This document shows positions 3,621 to 33,521 of a stretch of DNA of 64,000 nt, piece by piece. The stretch spans positions 1-64,000 of the forward strand of contig CANMCY010000009.1 in NCBI GenBank assembly GCA_947496375.1, read 5' to 3'. The translations under genes and the position numbers were made by a program. Numbering within the stretch: the stretch's first letter is position 1; every line of letters starts with the position of its first letter. The DNA comes from Flavobacteriales bacterium (GTDB taxonomy: Bacteria > Bacteroidota > Bacteroidia > NS11-12g > UBA955). The notes beneath the pieces are model-generated. The model searched no databases. It was given only the letters and a program-made list of their open reading frames with translations, and was not told where the DNA came from.

Positions 3621-4157
3621 ATGAGAAAGTTGCGTTTGCAGGAACTGAACCGCCTTAGCACTGAAGCGTTTCAAGCGGCATCGAAGTTACCCATCGTTGT
3701 GGTGCTGGACAATATTAGAAGTATGCACAATGTGGGCTCGTTTTTTCGCACTGCCGATGCGTTCAGGTGCGAGAAACTGCTGCTTTGTGGCATTACTGCC
3801 ACACCGCCACACCGCGATATTACCAAAACCGCTTTGGGTGCCGATCGCTCTGTTTCATGGGAATATTATGCTGACACAACCGCTGCCATGAAGGCGCTGA
3901 AAGAGCAAGGATACACACTTATAGGGGTAGAGCAAACTACCGGATCGCTGTCTTTACAGGAATTTTCCCTTCCTGAAAATCCTACAGCCATTATTTTTGG
4001 CAATGAAATTGATGGTATTCAGTCAGAAGTTCTTGAACTTTGCAACGCATGCGTAGAAATTCCACAGGCCGGAACCAAACATTCTCTCAACGTATCCGTT
4101 GCGGCCGGCATCGTGCTATGGCATGTGTGCGCACCGCAATTATCATCTTTGCGTTAG
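3621..4157 (+). CDS. SpoU-family RNA 2'-O-methyltransferase (TrmH-like)
   Basis: 178 residues carrying the three SPOUT motifs in order: motif 1 LDNIRSMHNVGSFFRTADAF (about residues 29-48) with the catalytic arginine, motif 2 IIFGNEIDGI, and motif 3 IPQAGTKHSLNVSVAAGI, which forms the knot and SAM pocket. It transfers a methyl group from SAM to a ribose 2'-OH in tRNA or rRNA. The N-terminal substrate-recognition extension of TrmH or RlmB is short, so the target cannot be named. A near-consensus -7 box (CATCTTTG) ends at 3606. The 3' end overlaps the next gene by 40 bp in another frame. Confidence 0.88.
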   Translation: MRKLRLQELNRLSTEAFQAASKLPIVVVLDNIRSMHNVGSFFRTADAFRCEKLLLCGITATPPHRDITKTALGADRSVSWEYYADTTAAMKALKEQGYTLIGVEQTTGSLSLQEFSLPENPTAIIFGNEIDGIQSEVLELCNACVEIPQAGTKHSLNVSVAAGIVLWHVCAPQLSSLR

Positions 4158-6178
4158 GATTTTCGGGTTTGCTGACTGCCCAAAAGAAGGATGAATTCGC
4201 CAAACTCTGCAATGCTGAACAATATCGTATCGATTTACTGGACGGCAGAAACGATACTAGTGCAGGTTACGCATCCCGTGCGCAATTTGACCGGGCCAGG
4301 CAGGTGTATTTTAGTCGTGTGGACCAGATACAGTTGCTGCTGGAGAAAAGCAGTTTCCCAAAATCGGAATATGAGTCTTTTTACAGACAGCTGATTGGTT
4401 CGCTGCAAGGCATCAATGCAGGCACTGTTCGGTTTTTGGGGTATTATGACCAGTTTTACACGACGGTGCTGGAACTGGCAAAAAACCAGGGTGTGCAAAA
4501 AGATCAGGAGCTTCTTAAAAATAACCTGTATGTAGCGCTGGAGGTAATTCCCTTCTACATAAAAAGGCCCGCTGCATCTGATGTATTAATGTTTGCAGCC
4601 ACCAAACGCCCGTATGATGTGCTTACCAAACATGCAGATTATCAGAGGGAGGCATGGGTTTTAAAGGTACTTGAAACGGTAGCCAAAAATGATCCTAATG
4701 CGATTAAACAGTTCATAGGCACCCTTCATCCGGTAAACAATGTGCTCATTAGCAGTAAAGATTCGGTGGTTTCCATGCTATATGATATTTATCGTGCCTA
4801 TGGCAGAAGCAGCAGTAGCTATACCAATATTCACATGGTGTACCACAGCGAACTGACCGTAGCACAAAGTCAGGCCCTGGCCGCAGATGAGGATGCCTGG
4901 TTTACCCGACTTTGTTCTCTTCGCCGCAATCCCAATATCCTGGGAGGTTATTCGGTAGATGCTGAAATGGCTCATCACAGCATGAAAGTGATTCGAAAAA
5001 TCAATCTTCTGCACGATGAGAAAAATGAAAAAATCAGGTTTAAGCTCGCTGAAAACCTGAGTGCTGAAGAATTATATAACCTGATAGTTTACAGCCGTGA
5101 TGAAATTTTTACCAGTACTTTTCTGGGCTTGTTCAAACGGATGATGCATCGGCGAACAGATAGCAGCATGTTCGTGTTTTGCAGTAAAATGGGCTTTAAT
5201 CGTTTCAGAACATTTGTGCAAACCTGCGCGGGGTATAACACACTGCAACCGGTGTTAAATACCATGACCGAGCAGGAACAGGAGCAATTTATCAATGAAA
5301 TTGTGAAGAACCTGGATCGGACCGGCGGAAACCTTGGACCGGCAGTGGAAGTGGCAGATATTTTTGGTTCACTCACAGATTCATTGATTCGCGAAAAAAT
5401 GGTTGTTCGTATTCACAAGGATTTGCGACGTTGCTACCTTGCGGATAACCGCTATGGAATGAAGATATACGGACTGCTATACAAACTGGCCGGAAAAAAT
5501 CCGGTGCTGGTTACCGGAATATCTGTGAAGTATAAAGTGCCTGAACTTACCCGTGTGGAAGCAGATCTGATGTTTCCCGACGGGAAAAACATACAGCAGC
5601 ATATTTTTTATGATGATGAAGATGGTTTGGCGGCTTTCAAATCCTTTAAAAGCAAGTTTTCATCGGATAAAAACTATAAAATAACCGAGGAGGATGGTTT
5701 TCTCAAAATTGAAAGTGTAGAAGGACGAAAAATCGTTTTGTATATGAACAAACCCGATGCTGAAAAAGGCCTGTTGCGGTTAATGTCACTTTTTGAAACC
5801 GAAAAGCGATATCCGGATGTGGTGGTACACCGAGGTCATAGCTATCACTTGCAAACCACCATTGATGTGCTTACCAGCAACACAAAGGTAGCCGTGCTTG
5901 GCAGCTGCGGCGGTTATCAAAACATAAGCAGGGTGCTGGAAAATGCGTCTGACGCCCAGATTGTTAGCAGTAAGCAAATCGGTACCTGGACAGTGAACAA
6001 TGAGTTGCTAAAGGACATGTGCGAAATGATGCGAACCGGAAGTGGTGAAATTGTATGGAGTACCTTGTGGGCAGGGTTGGAAGAGCGCATGAAAAACAAC
6101 GACAAGTGGAAAGATTATATCCCTCCCAACCGAAACCTGGGCGTCAAATTTGTAAAGGCATTTCAGGTGATGAAATAA
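4118..6178 (+). CDS. Secreted uncharacterised protein with a C-terminal clan CD (caspase/gingipain)-like His/Cys signature
   Basis: I placed the start at the ATG at 4118 because it begins a good signal peptide (ACVRTAIIIFALGFSGLLTAQ). A longer frame from 4040 would put unrelated sequence ahead of it. The mature protein is about 665 residues: a long mostly helical N-terminal half, then an alpha/beta C-terminal part. There, a strand runs into VVHRGHSYH (H571, H574), and about 23 residues later another strand runs into VAVLGSCGGY (C597), followed by AQIVSSKQIGTW. A strand ending in H-G-(H) plus a strand ending in a small-C motif is the arrangement of clan CD cysteine peptidases (caspase, gingipain, CHAT). 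The assignment is inference. No homologue of known function is recognised. The start overlaps the methyltransferase gene by 40 bp. Confidence 0.7.
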   Translation: MACVRTAIIIFALGFSGLLTAQKKDEFAKLCNAEQYRIDLLDGRNDTSAGYASRAQFDRARQVYFSRVDQIQLLLEKSSFPKSEYESFYRQLIGSLQGINAGTVRFLGYYDQFYTTVLELAKNQGVQKDQELLKNNLYVALEVIPFYIKRPAASDVLMFAATKRPYDVLTKHADYQREAWVLKVLETVAKNDPNAIKQFIGTLHPVNNVLISSKDSVVSMLYDIYRAYGRSSSSYTNIHMVYHSELTVAQSQALAADEDAWFTRLCSLRRNPNILGGYSVDAEMAHHSMKVIRKINLLHDEKNEKIRFKLAENLSAEELYNLIVYSRDEIFTSTFLGLFKRMMHRRTDSSMFVFCSKMGFNRFRTFVQTCAGYNTLQPVLNTMTEQEQEQFINEIVKNLDRTGGNLGPAVEVADIFGSLTDSLIREKMVVRIHKDLRRCYLADNRYGMKIYGLLYKLAGKNPVLVTGISVKYKVPELTRVEADLMFPDGKNIQQHIFYDDEDGLAAFKSFKSKFSSDKNYKITEEDGFLKIESVEGRKIVLYMNKPDAEKGLLRLMSLFETEKRYPDVVVHRGHSYHLQTTIDVLTSNTKVAVLGSCGGYQNISRVLENASDAQIVSSKQIGTWTVNNELLKDMCEMMRTGSGEIVWSTLWAGLEERMKNNDKWKDYIPPNRNLGVKFVKAFQVMK

Positions 6179-6184
6179 ATTGCG

Positions 6185-6802
6185 ATGGGGAAATTTCAAC
6201 TTACCCGGCTGCAGTGGTTTAATCTGATATTGTTGGTGATGCTGGTAAGTATTGCCGGGATAAGCGGATACCGAGGGTTGATTGCCCATTTTTTAAATGT
6301 GCGTGACAGCAGCAGCACTGCCAGGCCGGAATCCTCTATTCATCGGTTGCATAACGCCGCGCTTGATTTAGAAAAGCCGGCTTTATACAATGTGGTTTTT
6401 TTTCTGAGTAAGGATTGTCCTCTCTGCAATAACTATAAACCCTTGCTGGACACGCTTCATGCTATTTACGGACAGGATCCCCGTTTTTTACTGGTGGGGC
6501 TTCGCACCGATGTGAGCGTCGCTTCTGACAGCAGTTATTTTTTACCCGTAGAATACACCGCCGGTAAAGACGTTGCTTACATAGCCCGGATTTATGGTGC
6601 AAAAGTCACCCCCGAAGTGTTTGTGATTGATAGCAATAACCGCGTTTTATACAGCGGTGCCATTGACAACTGGGCCTACGACACAGGCAAAAAAAGAACC
6701 AACGCTACTGAAAATTACCTGAAAGATGTGCTGTTTGCCATAAAAAGAGGTCAAAAGCTGCCATATACCCAAACCCGCGCTGTGGGATGTTTTATAGAGT
6801 AG
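6185..6802 (+). CDS. Membrane-anchored redoxin (thioredoxin-like) protein
   Basis: 205 residues with one N-terminal membrane helix (about residues 10-33), then a thioredoxin-fold domain. The active-site-like motif is SKDCPLC in the usual strand-helix position, the cis-proline region is KVTPEVFVID, and the C-terminal ending is AVGCFIE. This ending is shared by redoxin-domain proteins that sit next to cytochrome c/copper monooxygenase genes. It would act outside the inner membrane as a thiol oxidoreductase. The gene begins 6 nt after the upstream stop and precedes the cytochrome-monooxygenase gene, which fits a role in metallating or reducing that partner. Confidence 0.8.
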   Translation: MGKFQLTRLQWFNLILLVMLVSIAGISGYRGLIAHFLNVRDSSSTARPESSIHRLHNAALDLEKPALYNVVFFLSKDCPLCNNYKPLLDTLHAIYGQDPRFLLVGLRTDVSVASDSSYFLPVEYTAGKDVAYIARIYGAKVTPEVFVIDSNNRVLYSGAIDNWAYDTGKKRTNATENYLKDVLFAIKRGQKLPYTQTRAVGCFIE

Positions 6803-6853: not shown

Positions 6854-8233
6854 ATGCGACATAGTCTGATTCTATGGGTAGTTACGGTAATGATTTTTGG
6901 ATGGCATTGCAGCGGTCCGGCAAAAACCGATGTGCCTGATAAACCCACCTATGCCGAACATATTGAGCCCATTATTCGCTCTCAGTGCGTGACATGCCAC
7001 CATAACGGCGGAACAGCCCCTTTCTCTTTGCAAACCTATGAAGAGGTAAAAAGAAAATCCAAAACCATTGCCAGGGTCACCGCAAAAAGATATATGCCGC
7101 CTTGGCCCGCCGACCCGGAGTATGCACATTTTATTAATGAAAAAGTGCTGACCAAAGCCGAAATCGAAATCATCCAACGCTGGGCTGAAACAGGTGCAGC
7201 CCCCGGTGATTTGACTAAGGTTAAACCATACGAATTGCCTGCATGGAAAAGCTCAATTGGTAAACCCGATTTGGTTCTGCCGATTGAGGAGGTAGAGATT
7301 GAACCCAATATGCGTGATCGTTTTTTTCTGGTTAAAATTCCCGGTCTGCTAAGCCGCGATACCTGGGTGAGAGCCGTTGAATTCGTGGCCGGTTCACCGG
7401 ATCTGGTTCATCATTTTAACGGACATATTCTAATGTATGACAAGGGTAAAAAGAAAAACCATCAAAAAAAGCCCTACGCTATAGAAATAACTGCCGGTGA
7501 ATATGACAGTGATTTTGGTAAACTGGATTTACTCAATGACGATGGAAGCAAGCCATACAGATTGCACAGTGCTGTAAATTATTTACCCGGTGTGCAGGGT
7601 GTGGCCTATCCGGATGGGATTGGAACCTTCAGACTGTCCGGTAAGTTTACTGTGGTTGGCAATGATTTGCATTATGGGCCCAGCAATAGAAAAACCCGAG
7701 ACAGAAGTTATATCAATTTGTTTTTTACAGATAAACCACCCAGCAGATTAACAAAAGAGCTCATGCTGGGAACCAATGGGGTTAGTGGAATAACACCTCC
7801 ACTGTTGATTGCTCCCAATTCAGTAAGCAAGCACACCACTCGCTTTCAGATTGACCGGGATATTTCACTGCTAACCGTCAATCCTCACTTGCATTTGCTG
7901 GGAAAGCGTTTCACAGGATATGCATTAAAACCCAATGGCGATACGGTAAAACTGATTCAAATCCCGCATTGGGATTTCAGGTGGCAATATTTTTACACCT
8001 ATCCCAATCCGGTATATCTGCCGGCCGGCACCATCGTTGTGGCTGAAGCAGTTTTTGACAATACTGCCGGGAATCCTAATAACCCCAATCAGCCGCCAAA
8101 GCAAGTAGGAGAACGCATGGAGTATGGCGGTGCAAGTATGAGGGCCGGAGATGAAATGTTTCAGTTCATCCTGACATACATGGATTATCAAACAGGGGAT
8201 GAGAAAATTTCCCTTGATAATGGAAAAAAATAA
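6854..8233 (+). CDS. Lipoprotein fusing a cytochrome c domain to a copper type II ascorbate-dependent monooxygenase-like (PHM) domain
   Basis: 459 residues. The signal ends in FGWHC, a lipobox with Cys19. Residues 35-110 are a class I cytochrome c-like domain with the haem motif CVTCH (C45, C48, H49) and MPPW as the likely axial Met region. The rest resembles peptidylglycine alpha-hydroxylating monooxygenase. The three copper-site segments are in order: VHHFNGH (H186, H187), DLHYG (H273), and NPHLHLLGKRF (H345, H347), with a late GDEMFQF giving the likely Met ligand (M435). All expected ligands are present, so it is probably an active copper oxygenase whose electrons come through the haem rather than ascorbate. 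The substrate is unknown. It forms a unit with the redoxin upstream. Confidence 0.82.
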   Translation: MRHSLILWVVTVMIFGWHCSGPAKTDVPDKPTYAEHIEPIIRSQCVTCHHNGGTAPFSLQTYEEVKRKSKTIARVTAKRYMPPWPADPEYAHFINEKVLTKAEIEIIQRWAETGAAPGDLTKVKPYELPAWKSSIGKPDLVLPIEEVEIEPNMRDRFFLVKIPGLLSRDTWVRAVEFVAGSPDLVHHFNGHILMYDKGKKKNHQKKPYAIEITAGEYDSDFGKLDLLNDDGSKPYRLHSAVNYLPGVQGVAYPDGIGTFRLSGKFTVVGNDLHYGPSNRKTRDRSYINLFFTDKPPSRLTKELMLGTNGVSGITPPLLIAPNSVSKHTTRFQIDRDISLLTVNPHLHLLGKRFTGYALKPNGDTVKLIQIPHWDFRWQYFYTYPNPVYLPAGTIVVAEAVFDNTAGNPNNPNQPPKQVGERMEYGGASMRAGDEMFQFILTYMDYQTGDEKISLDNGKK

Positions 8234-29978: not shown

Positions 29979-30116
29979 AGTTTCTGAATGGACAAATTTA
30001 GGAGATAAAACGTTTCACGCAACAAAATATTTTTTCATCGTCAGGGAAAAATGACAGTATTGTGCTTAATAAAATGCAATTTTTTGGGATATTTGCAGTT
30101 AATGGGTGCTGTGTAT

Positions 30117-33100
30117 ATGCATATTTTTCAAAAAGTTAAGATGCTCGTGTTTTCGGGTTGTATTCTTTTTTGTACAACAGCGTTGTCGCAGGGTATGAAA
30201 TTTAGTGATGGCGAATGGGTTAGGGTACGTGTTTCCAATGATGGGGTTTACAGAATCACCGCAACAGAGTTGAAAAATGCAGGTTTAAATCCAGAGGGTA
30301 AAGATGCAGGAAAATTAGTCGTTTATACCCATCAGGGTGCAATGCTGCCGGAAATGAGTCGCAGTGCTTTTCACGGAACCAAAGAGATCCCCATTTATGT
30401 TGAAGGGGGAAATGATGGAGTTTTCAGTGGAGAGGATTACCTTTTATTTTTTGCCATGGCTCCTCATACCTGGAATTATGCTGCAGGACAATGGAGGCAT
30501 TCGGTACATTTTTATGACAACTTTACCTATTTATACATCGGTTTTGGGAAAACTGCCGGTAAGCGCATGAATACAGTGAATTTTCAAGGAACCGCCAATG
30601 TTATAATCGATGAATCAGAATGGATGCAGTTTTATGAAAAAGATCTTGAAAACCCCATACACATGGGAAGAACCTGGCTGGGAGAAAAGCTTGGAAATGA
30701 AACACTGAACCGGGCTGTTGAATTCGGGATACCCGCCATGGCCGATGATTCGGTCGATGTGCGAATTTCAGTGGCAGGAGGGATGCAGGACGGCTCAGGT
30801 ACCATCAATTATGCAATCAATAGTGTTTCAGGAACATTGAATTATTCACCGATAAATACTGAATATGTTGCATTCGATCTTCAGGAAAGGTTTTTTAAAT
30901 TGACCGCACCCGCAAAAAAGTTGCAGGCGCAGTTTACTTTAACCAGGCCTAATACCAAAAGCAGTGGCTGGATTAATTTTATAGAGGCAACAGGTAAAAT
31001 GCCCATTAATACCTCAGCGGGGCAGGTGATCATCCGAAATCGTGAGTTAACAGATAATGTTACTGCAGAAATCAGGGTTACCTCCGATATCATCAGTAAG
31101 CCCATCGCTGTATGGAATGTAAGTAATCCTTTTATGCCGGTTGCTCAGGACCTAATTCAGCAGGGTACTTATAAAAAAACCATATCACCTTCAGGCCAAT
31201 CCAAAAAGATGTTTGTCGCTTTTGAACCGGGCAATTTATCCAAACCGGAGATTTTGGGCCTTATCAGCGGACCGGATTTACTGCAAAATGCTCCACCAGA
31301 TTTGCTTATTATTACACATCGCGATTTTTTAAGCGCCGCCAATCGCCTGGCTGCCATTCGAAGTAAAAATCAGGGCTACTCGGTTCAGGTGGTAGATGTA
31401 CAGGATATTTACAATCAGTTTAGCACCTCACAGCAAGACCTGGTGGCAATTCGGGATTTTGTAAGAAGTGTCTATCTCAAATCAGTTTCCTCAGGCAAAT
31501 TATTGAAGCATGTGCTGCTAATGGGTGCTGCCAGCTACGATATGAAAGACCGGGTGAAAGGAAATACCAATTTTATTCCAACATACCAATATGATGCGCA
31601 TAACAAAGGTGTTACATTTTGTTTGGATGACTTTTATGGATACCTGGATTCGCTGGCCGGCGATCCTGCAAGGGGTAAAAACCAGTTGTGGGTTTCGGTG
31701 GGCAGAATACCATGCAGAATCTCTCAGGAGGCGGAAGGGATGGTCAGCAAGCTGGAACAATATGATTCACCCAAGAGTCTTGGAGATTGGCGAACCAATA
31801 TTACCTACGTTACCGATGATGTAGATATTTCTTGGGAAACCGTATTTACCAGCGAAAGTGAGCGGTACGCAAAATACATCGATACCAACCACACATATCT
31901 GTCTGTAAACAAGCTGTTTGCAGATGCATTTACCCAGGTTTCCACCGGAAATACGGAAAAATATCCTGACGTAAATCAGGCCATAGACCGCACCATGAAA
32001 GACGGTTGCCTTTTCATGAATTACCAGGGTCATGGTGGTCCTGCCGGCTGGGCTCAGGAGGCCATTCTGGATGTTCCAATGATTAAAGCATGGAATAACA
32101 GATGGAAAATGCCGGTTATGTTTACCGCCACCTGTGAATTCAGTTTGTATGATGACCCAAGCGAACAAAGTGCCGGTGAGCTTGCCTTGCTCAATCCCAA
32201 TGGAGGTCCAATAGCCCTCATGTCTACCACCAGACTGGTATTTGTATCAGGCAATATGGCAATCAATAACGATTTTTGGACCAATTATGGGTTCCCTAAA
32301 GCCAATGAGCCGATTCCAACGCTGGGCGATGTGTTCAAAAGACTAAAAAACAGACAGGACATCACTTCGGAAGATAATAAATTCGCTTTGCTGGGCGACC
32401 CTTCCATGCCACTTGCATTTCCAAAGCACAAAGTTATTTTGGATTCCATCAATCACAAGGCCGCTCAAGGATTCAATGACACGCTCAAAGCATTTGGTGT
32501 GGTAGAAATCAAAGGCCATATTGAAGAGCGATTGAAAGGGAAATTCAGTGCCTTCAATGGTCAGTTATGGGTTAAAGTTTTGGATAAACCCACCCTGAGA
32601 AAGACACTTGTCAATGATCAGCTGGGGGCACCTATTCCTTATGAGGATCAGAGCAGCTACATATTCAAAGGAACCGTTACCGTGCAAAACGGAGAGTTTA
32701 CGATTTTGTTTGCCACACCCAAAGATATTGCCTATCAGGTTGATTTCGGGAAGATTTTATTGTACGCCCACAACGGGGAAACCGATGCAGCGGGTGGCTA
32801 TCGCATAAAGATAGGTGGAAGCGAACAGGATGTAATTCCTGGAACCACAGGTCCGGAAGTGCAGGTTTTTATGAATGATACAACATTCATTTCAGAAGGT
32901 GAGGTTCAACCCAGCACTGAATTACTGGTAAAGGTGAAAGATGAAGATGGCTTAAATGCAACCGGTGCCGGTATTGGAAGGGATATGTTGGCTATTCTGG
33001 ATAAAGGTACTCCGGCAGAAAAAACCTATTTGCTCAATGAGTATTTCAGTTATGACCTAAATTCCTATAAATCCGGGAGAATTCGCATGCCCATCATGGA

Positions 33101-33521
33101 TTTAATGCCAGGACGCCATACCCTAACAATAAAGGTATGGGATATTTTCAATAATTCAGGGGAAGGATCAACTGCGTTCACAGTAAGTAACGGCAACCTT
33201 GAGGTTTTTGAGCATGCCGCATTCCCCAATCCGTTCTCCAATGAGGTGGGGATTTGGTTCAGGCACAACATGCCCGGCAGAAACCTGAAAGCTGAGGTAG
33301 AAGTAACCGATCTTCAGGGGAAGGTCCTGCATCGGTTTCAAAAAGATATCGAAAATGCCAATAGCCGAGAGGTAAGACTAAACTGGACAGGATATGGTGC
33401 ACCGGTTCCGGAATTACAAACAGCCACACTGCCTTCCGGTGTTTATCTTTACAGGGTAAAATTATCCAATGGTGAAGTGTCTACATCATTCTCCGGTAAA
33501 ATGATCAAAATTTTGCGGTAA
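30117..33521 (+). CDS. porU: T9SS C-terminal-signal peptidase PorU
   Basis: About 1134 residues. I start at the M at 30117, which gives HIFQKVKMLVFSGCILFCTTALSQG as signal; the ATG at 30102 is also possible. Further upstream in-frame sequence is not signal-like. The central part is a C25 (gingipain-type) cysteine peptidase: LLIITHRDFLSAANRLAAIR opens the alpha/beta fold, the catalytic His639 is in NYQGHGGPAGW and Cys673 in FTATCEF. The C-terminus has the conserved AAFPNPFSNEVGIWF domain, retained as in other PorU proteins. PorU is the sortase that cleaves CTD signals of T9SS cargo at the outer membrane and attaches them to A-LPS where that applies. porV follows directly. Confidence 0.95.
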   Translation: MHIFQKVKMLVFSGCILFCTTALSQGMKFSDGEWVRVRVSNDGVYRITATELKNAGLNPEGKDAGKLVVYTHQGAMLPEMSRSAFHGTKEIPIYVEGGNDGVFSGEDYLLFFAMAPHTWNYAAGQWRHSVHFYDNFTYLYIGFGKTAGKRMNTVNFQGTANVIIDESEWMQFYEKDLENPIHMGRTWLGEKLGNETLNRAVEFGIPAMADDSVDVRISVAGGMQDGSGTINYAINSVSGTLNYSPINTEYVAFDLQERFFKLTAPAKKLQAQFTLTRPNTKSSGWINFIEATGKMPINTSAGQVIIRNRELTDNVTAEIRVTSDIISKPIAVWNVSNPFMPVAQDLIQQGTYKKTISPSGQSKKMFVAFEPGNLSKPEILGLISGPDLLQNAPPDLLIITHRDFLSAANRLAAIRSKNQGYSVQVVDVQDIYNQFSTSQQDLVAIRDFVRSVYLKSVSSGKLLKHVLLMGAASYDMKDRVKGNTNFIPTYQYDAHNKGVTFCLDDFYGYLDSLAGDPARGKNQLWVSVGRIPCRISQEAEGMVSKLEQYDSPKSLGDWRTNITYVTDDVDISWETVFTSESERYAKYIDTNHTYLSVNKLFADAFTQVSTGNTEKYPDVNQAIDRTMKDGCLFMNYQGHGGPAGWAQEAILDVPMIKAWNNRWKMPVMFTATCEFSLYDDPSEQSAGELALLNPNGGPIALMSTTRLVFVSGNMAINNDFWTNYGFPKANEPIPTLGDVFKRLKNRQDITSEDNKFALLGDPSMPLAFPKHKVILDSINHKAAQGFNDTLKAFGVVEIKGHIEERLKGKFSAFNGQLWVKVLDKPTLRKTLVNDQLGAPIPYEDQSSYIFKGTVTVQNGEFTILFATPKDIAYQVDFGKILLYAHNGETDAAGGYRIKIGGSEQDVIPGTTGPEVQVFMNDTTFISEGEVQPSTELLVKVKDEDGLNATGAGIGRDMLAILDKGTPAEKTYLLNEYFSYDLNSYKSGRIRMPIMDLMPGRHTLTIKVWDIFNNSGEGSTAFTVSNGNLEVFEHAAFPNPFSNEVGIWFRHNMPGRNLKAEVEVTDLQGKVLHRFQKDIENANSREVRLNWTGYGAPVPELQTATLPSGVYLYRVKLSNGEVSTSFSGKMIKILR

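Follow-up and report, generated by a model that had tools for sequence, protein, structure and literature searches.

A conserved His-Cys pair in an exported Bacteroidota protein suggests a previously undescribed clan CD-like peptidase family

Our analysis of the window, the whole 64,000-nucleotide stretch of DNA considered here, suggests that one of its uncharacterised genes probably encodes a cysteine endopeptidase that is exported, most likely to the periplasm, and belongs to a clan CD-like family not described before, a reading drawn from conservation and covariation in sequence. In the proposed mechanism, Cys597 would act as the nucleophile and His574 as the general base, while Asp500 and Asp502, at the junction of strand 1 and helix 1, would line the S1 pocket, and a pocket lined in this way would therefore direct cleavage after Arg or Lys. 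The N-terminal half, rich in helices, may serve as a scaffold that either recruits substrate or holds back the protease until a partner is bound, much as the helical regions do in separase and TPR-CHAT. The family has an invariant protease-type dyad, yet it has no name, domain model or structure, and our search of the literature found no description of the motif or of such a family.

Protein layout and the His-Cys pair

The protein begins with MACVRTAIIIFALGFSGLLTAQ, which, judged by eye, has the features of a Sec-type signal peptide and lacks a lipobox. Cleavage is predicted before Gln22, and comparable signal-like N-termini, likewise judged by eye, recur in Bacteroidota orthologues, in agreement with the signal peptide proposed in the original prediction for this DNA. 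The long helical N-terminus named in that prediction is consistent with the sequence and with a low-confidence AF2 model of the full-length protein, built from five close sequences only (pLDDT 43). Within this region, Arg307 and Thr332 are conserved in 58 of 58 aligned proteins.

Table 1. Coordinates of the gene, the parts of its product and the flanking genes (nucleotide positions in the window; residue numbers refer to the 686-residue protein).
Feature	Position	Strand	Basis or remark
SpoU/TrmH-type RNA methyltransferase	3621..4157	+	overlaps gene start by 40 nt
Whole gene, uncharacterised exported protein	4118..6178	+	686 aa from ATG; orthologues' frames open end to end
Putative Sec signal peptide, residues 1-21, without lipobox	4118..4180	+	sequence, by eye
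Helix-rich N-terminal region, residues 23-455	4184..5482	+	low-confidence AF2 model and sequence
C-terminal clan CD-like domain, residues 467-686	5516..6175	+	conservation, covariation, weak model
Strand 1 (491-497), then D500-x-D502-G503 motif, candidate S1 pocket acids	5588..5626	+	conservation; covariation
Strand 2 (537-544)	5726..5749	+	covariation with strand 1; hairpin with 528-532
Strand 3, then HRGHS (571-575), putative catalytic His574	5813..5842	+	conservation; covariation
Strand 4, then LGSCGG (594-599), putative catalytic Cys597	5882..5914	+	conservation; covariation
Strand 5 region (611-617) and QIGT loop (620-623)	5948..5986	+	covariation
C-terminal IxWxxxW ... YxPPxxN block (W647, W651, Y667, P670, N673)	6050..6136	+	conservation
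Thioredoxin-like protein with membrane anchor and CPLC, directly downstream	6185..6802	+	common to 10 loci of the same family

In the C-terminal domain, the C-terminal ends of two hydrophobic strands carry first a His (VVVHRGHS) and then a Cys (KVAVLGSCGG). The HRGHS motif is encoded at nt 5828-5842 and LGSCGG at nt 5897-5914, and the residue numbers given earlier for both (His571/574 and Cys597) are exact, as is the 23-residue gap that places Cys597 at His574 + 23. This gap recurs in 158 of the 158 domains counted.

Conservation was counted first in an alignment of 58 proteins, then in a set of 256 unique C-terminal domains with identities down to 28%. Both His574 and Cys597 are present in 256 of 256 domains, together with Arg572, Gly573, Ser575, Gly595 and Gly598; W647, Y667 and P670 are likewise found in 256 of 256 and W651 in 255, while residue 596 varies between Ser, Ala, Gly and Asp. 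The acids after strand 1 are near-invariant (Asp500 in 253/255 domains, Asp502 in 250/255). No member without the His574-Cys597 pair was found among the 256 unique domains, those of Azospirillum included, so that the check attached to the original prediction, namely whether His and Cys vary among orthologues, leaves the pair standing. The conservation of the pair goes beyond chance.

As to which histidine belongs to the dyad, the two had been proposed side by side, and the counts separate them. His571 is kept in 253 of 256 domains and is replaced by Asn in two and by Gln in one. Because His571 is replaced in these three members while His574 never varies, the dyad histidine is likely His574 rather than His571, and His574 sits where the GH(G) motif of clan CD stands. 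These natural variants, His571Asn in two cases and His571Gln in one, belong to loci L243, L374 and L358, in genomes with more than one copy.

Covariation and the fold of the C-terminal domain

The core of clan CD enzymes is a sheet of order 2up-1up-3up-4up-5up-6down, with the His ending strand 3 and the Cys ending strand 4 (McLuskey and Mottram, PMC4357240). We analysed covariation in the 256 domains (effective number about 183) by mean-field and pseudo-likelihood DCA, the latter leaving out the last few of 220 columns, an omission that bears on nothing but pairs at the very C-terminal end. The top long-range pairs connect strands 3 and 4 (V569-T589, z 8.7-9.4), strands 1 and 3 (H495-V570, z 8.0), strands 1 and 2 (N491-I539) and strands 4 and 5 (V591-Q614); Q494-N544 also covary, joining strands 1 and 2, and Q620-D666 and T623-K663 link the QIGT loop region to residues further towards the C-terminus. 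Ladder scores indicate that strand pairs 1-2, 1-3 and 3-4 are parallel and that strands 4 and 5 are adjacent. Antiparallel hairpin ladders were detected at 519-523/530-534 and 528-532/540-544, and a further antiparallel ladder at 619-623/663-667 could be strand 6.

When strands were shifted at random, the observed summed parallel score for pairs 1-2, 1-3, 3-4 and 4-5 was reached once in 1000 trials by mean-field DCA and 0 times in 1000 by pseudo-likelihood DCA. Among 60 sheet orders, 2-1-3-4-5 ranks first by mean-field and second by pseudo-likelihood DCA, where the order 31254 scores slightly above it, which counts against the clan CD reading. The same is true of strand pair 4-5, for which the antiparallel ladder scores higher than the parallel one, and of the fact that 2-1-3-4-5 is also the order of flavodoxin-like folds, because of which sheet order alone is no proof of clan CD.

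As read from covariation rather than from a structure, the domain nevertheless has the clan CD core, with strands 2-1-3-4 parallel, the His after strand 3 and the Cys after strand 4, supporting the clan CD-like arrangement first recognised by eye. Clan CD is the best reading because sheet order, the position of the dyad and the acids after strand 1 come together. The end of strand 1 is closely followed by Asp365 in MALT1 and by Asp95 in TbMCA2, acids with an established or presumed role in binding basic P1 residues (PMC4357240), and since Asp500 and Asp502 occupy this position, a basic P1 would be favoured here as well.

An AF2 model of the C-terminal domain, again from five close sequences only, is weak (pLDDT 51.5, pTM 0.46) and shows the element order E-H-[EE]-E-H-E(His)-H-E(Cys)-H-E, as expected for clan CD. 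Comparison of this pLDDT 51.5 model by Foldseek/VIA returned no clan CD rows; the best rows were RsfS/nucleotidyltransferase-like, with Z up to about 6, within the background of the tool, and covered mainly residues 476-572.

Known peptidase families and alternative readings

The protein gave no match above threshold against Pfam, NCBIfam, PADLOC or PDB sequences, and none of the clan CD families matched its sequence with statistical significance, which counts against the clan CD reading. The C25 profile (PF01364) does not match at the gene, its matches in the genome being PorU and one other protein, and the profiles for CHAT (PF12770), C14 (PF00656) and Peptidase_C11 (PF03415) have 0 matches in the genome. 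The protein is, as those profiles define them, not a member of C14, C25, CHAT or C11. A profile search of PDB sequences retrieved only designed helical cages, aligned to the N-terminal part. Profile-profile alignments to CHAT (P 0.01, 20 columns) and C14 (P 0.08), both non-significant, put the catalytic Cys on Cys597, and the 58-sequence alignment compared with C25 placed H571 and C597 opposite the gingipain-type dyad at E 0.25, a correspondence that was gone with a larger alignment.

The His-Cys spacing, measured in known families on the members whose motifs could be located, is 34 residues in C25/PorU, 40-51 in CHAT and 51-60 in C14, compared with 23 here, bearing out the original prediction that it would fall below that of most clan CD members. 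We place the protein as clan CD-like yet outside C25, CHAT, C14 and C11 because their profiles miss it and because its gap is shorter than in C25, CHAT and C14; as far as the evidence goes, it would work like a clan CD enzyme outside the known families.

Several of these families share individual features with the protein. CHAT proteins join a helical N-terminal part to a C-terminal caspase-like domain, as in the layout proposed here, and their LSAC strand aligns with LGSC in the non-significant alignment, but CHAT effectors act in the cytoplasm whereas the protein carries a signal peptide, and both the profile and the spacing of CHAT set it apart. Separase (C50) has a long helical N-terminal region, a C-terminal caspase-like protease and GHG and GC motifs; it is alike in domain layout, by description, and unlike in being eukaryotic and intracellular. 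The helical and caspase-like parts have been described in TPR-CHAT/Csx29 (PMC10028731), and separase has been placed in clan CD (PMC4626109). Gingipain and PorU (C25) are, like the proposed enzyme, exported Bacteroidota members of clan CD, with the His after strand 3, the Cys after strand 4 and an acidic S1 residue, Asp163 in RgpB (PMC4357240), but they differ in spacing and in the profile that misses the protein. They also differ in the T9SS C-terminal domain, since the sorting domain (Por_Secre_tail) is absent from the protein in Pfam scans, and the conserved domain reaches the C-terminus. Metacaspases, orthocaspases and paracaspases (C14B) likewise have a His-Cys dyad and, after strand 1, acids that accommodate a basic P1 residue (PMC4357240); their spacing and the lack of a PF00656 match in the genome distinguish them.

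A clan CD-like fold might also house a different chemistry, such as acyl transfer through a thioester or acyl-enzyme, PorU-like transpeptidation or sorting, or hydrolysis of a non-peptide bond. The geometry sets the Cys nucleophile and leaves the substrate free, the clan CD sortase PorU is encoded in the same window, and the short connection between strands 3 and 4 may alter the active-site cleft; we nonetheless regard this as unlikely, as a peptidase is favoured by the S1 position of Asp500 and Asp502 and by what clan CD enzymes usually do. We think it considerably less probable that the domain is a flavodoxin-like or Asp/Glu-racemase-like enzyme (arylmalonate decarboxylase), with Cys597 as proton donor and no kinship to clan CD. 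Such an enzyme would suit the sheet order, and Amdase (PF17645, arylmalonate decarboxylase) is the commonest sub-threshold Pfam match, occurring in 7 of 39 family members, all weak, with a best E of 0.014. In the protein itself, however, this match stays under the family cut-off (14.1 bits against 25.9) and spans only 44 residues (589-632), and a racemase-like enzyme gives no reason for the invariant HRGHS motif ahead of strand 4 or for the acids that follow strand 1.

The conserved residues could instead bind a structural or catalytic metal through His571-x-x-His574, Cys597 and Asp500/Asp502, as the HxxH spacing and the joint conservation of the Cys and the acids might suggest, but a metal site is improbable to a similar degree, given that three members have Asn or Gln in place of His571 and that Asp502 is not constant, in contrast to Cys597 and His574, which never change. 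About as improbable is a non-catalytic role, in which the motifs would be kept because a periplasmic scaffold needs them to fold or to bind a partner: although W647, Y667, P670 and R572 match the dyad in invariance and no activity is known, the His and the Cys stand at the ends of neighbouring parallel strands, and the pair is lost in 0 of 256 members, even in genomes with two or three copies. An alpha/beta-hydrolase nucleophile elbow (G-x-C-x-G) was considered and rejected, there being no conserved His after Cys597.

Distribution and gene neighbourhood

Relatives of the putative peptidase occur in 43 of 58 near genomes and, within the two families of the window's order, in 31 of 38 and 34 of 70 genomes; several genera with small genomes, in the family to which the window belongs, have no relative. 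Another family of the same class, possibly Chitinophagaceae to judge by its size and breadth, has the gene in 359 of 374 sampled genomes (about 96%) and 99 of 101 genera, with between one and three copies per genome. When the phylum was sampled evenly, 14 of 395 genomes gave matches, all in that other family except the window genome itself. Azospirillum megaplasmids carry more distant relatives (L047, L048 and L049), with 28-31% identity in the domain, and these are a candidate case of transfer between phyla. An origin in phages or defence systems was also considered and is without support, since searches of PADLOC, phages and viral contigs all came back empty.

A more far-reaching proposal, which we advance tentatively and would not yet favour as a whole, is that the protein represents a separate clan CD family with the shortest measured link between strands 3 and 4, and that it acts as a regulated, Arg/Lys-specific processing protease in the periplasm, core to a large Bacteroidota lineage and passed on to Azospirillum. 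It would pair a helical sensor with a caspase-like cutter, as an analogue of separase and TPR-CHAT. As a clan CD-like peptidase, the protein would in any case add a compact family to clan CD and tie the clan to the physiology of the cell envelope beyond type IX secretion, and the breadth of the gene in the sampled family would point to an unstudied core step of envelope proteolysis.

The neighbouring genes tell little of function. An RNA methyltransferase lies directly upstream of the gene in 26 loci, and MutS is divergent upstream in 16. In the other family, the one with 359 of 374 genomes, an OmpR-type response regulator and a histidine kinase are divergent upstream in 7 of 8 loci (L128-L134), with ABC transporter and ATP synthase genes downstream. 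That the thioredoxin-like neighbour keeps the exported Cys reduced is speculation. Elsewhere in the window, a PorU-type C25 protein of the type IX secretion sortase family is encoded at 30051-33521 (+), with its C25 domain at 31305-32414; this clan CD enzyme lies some 25 kb away from the gene. Closer by, the product of the gene at 6854-8233 (+) contains CVTCHHNG, a c-type haem-like motif, and weakly matches a copper monooxygenase C-terminal domain.
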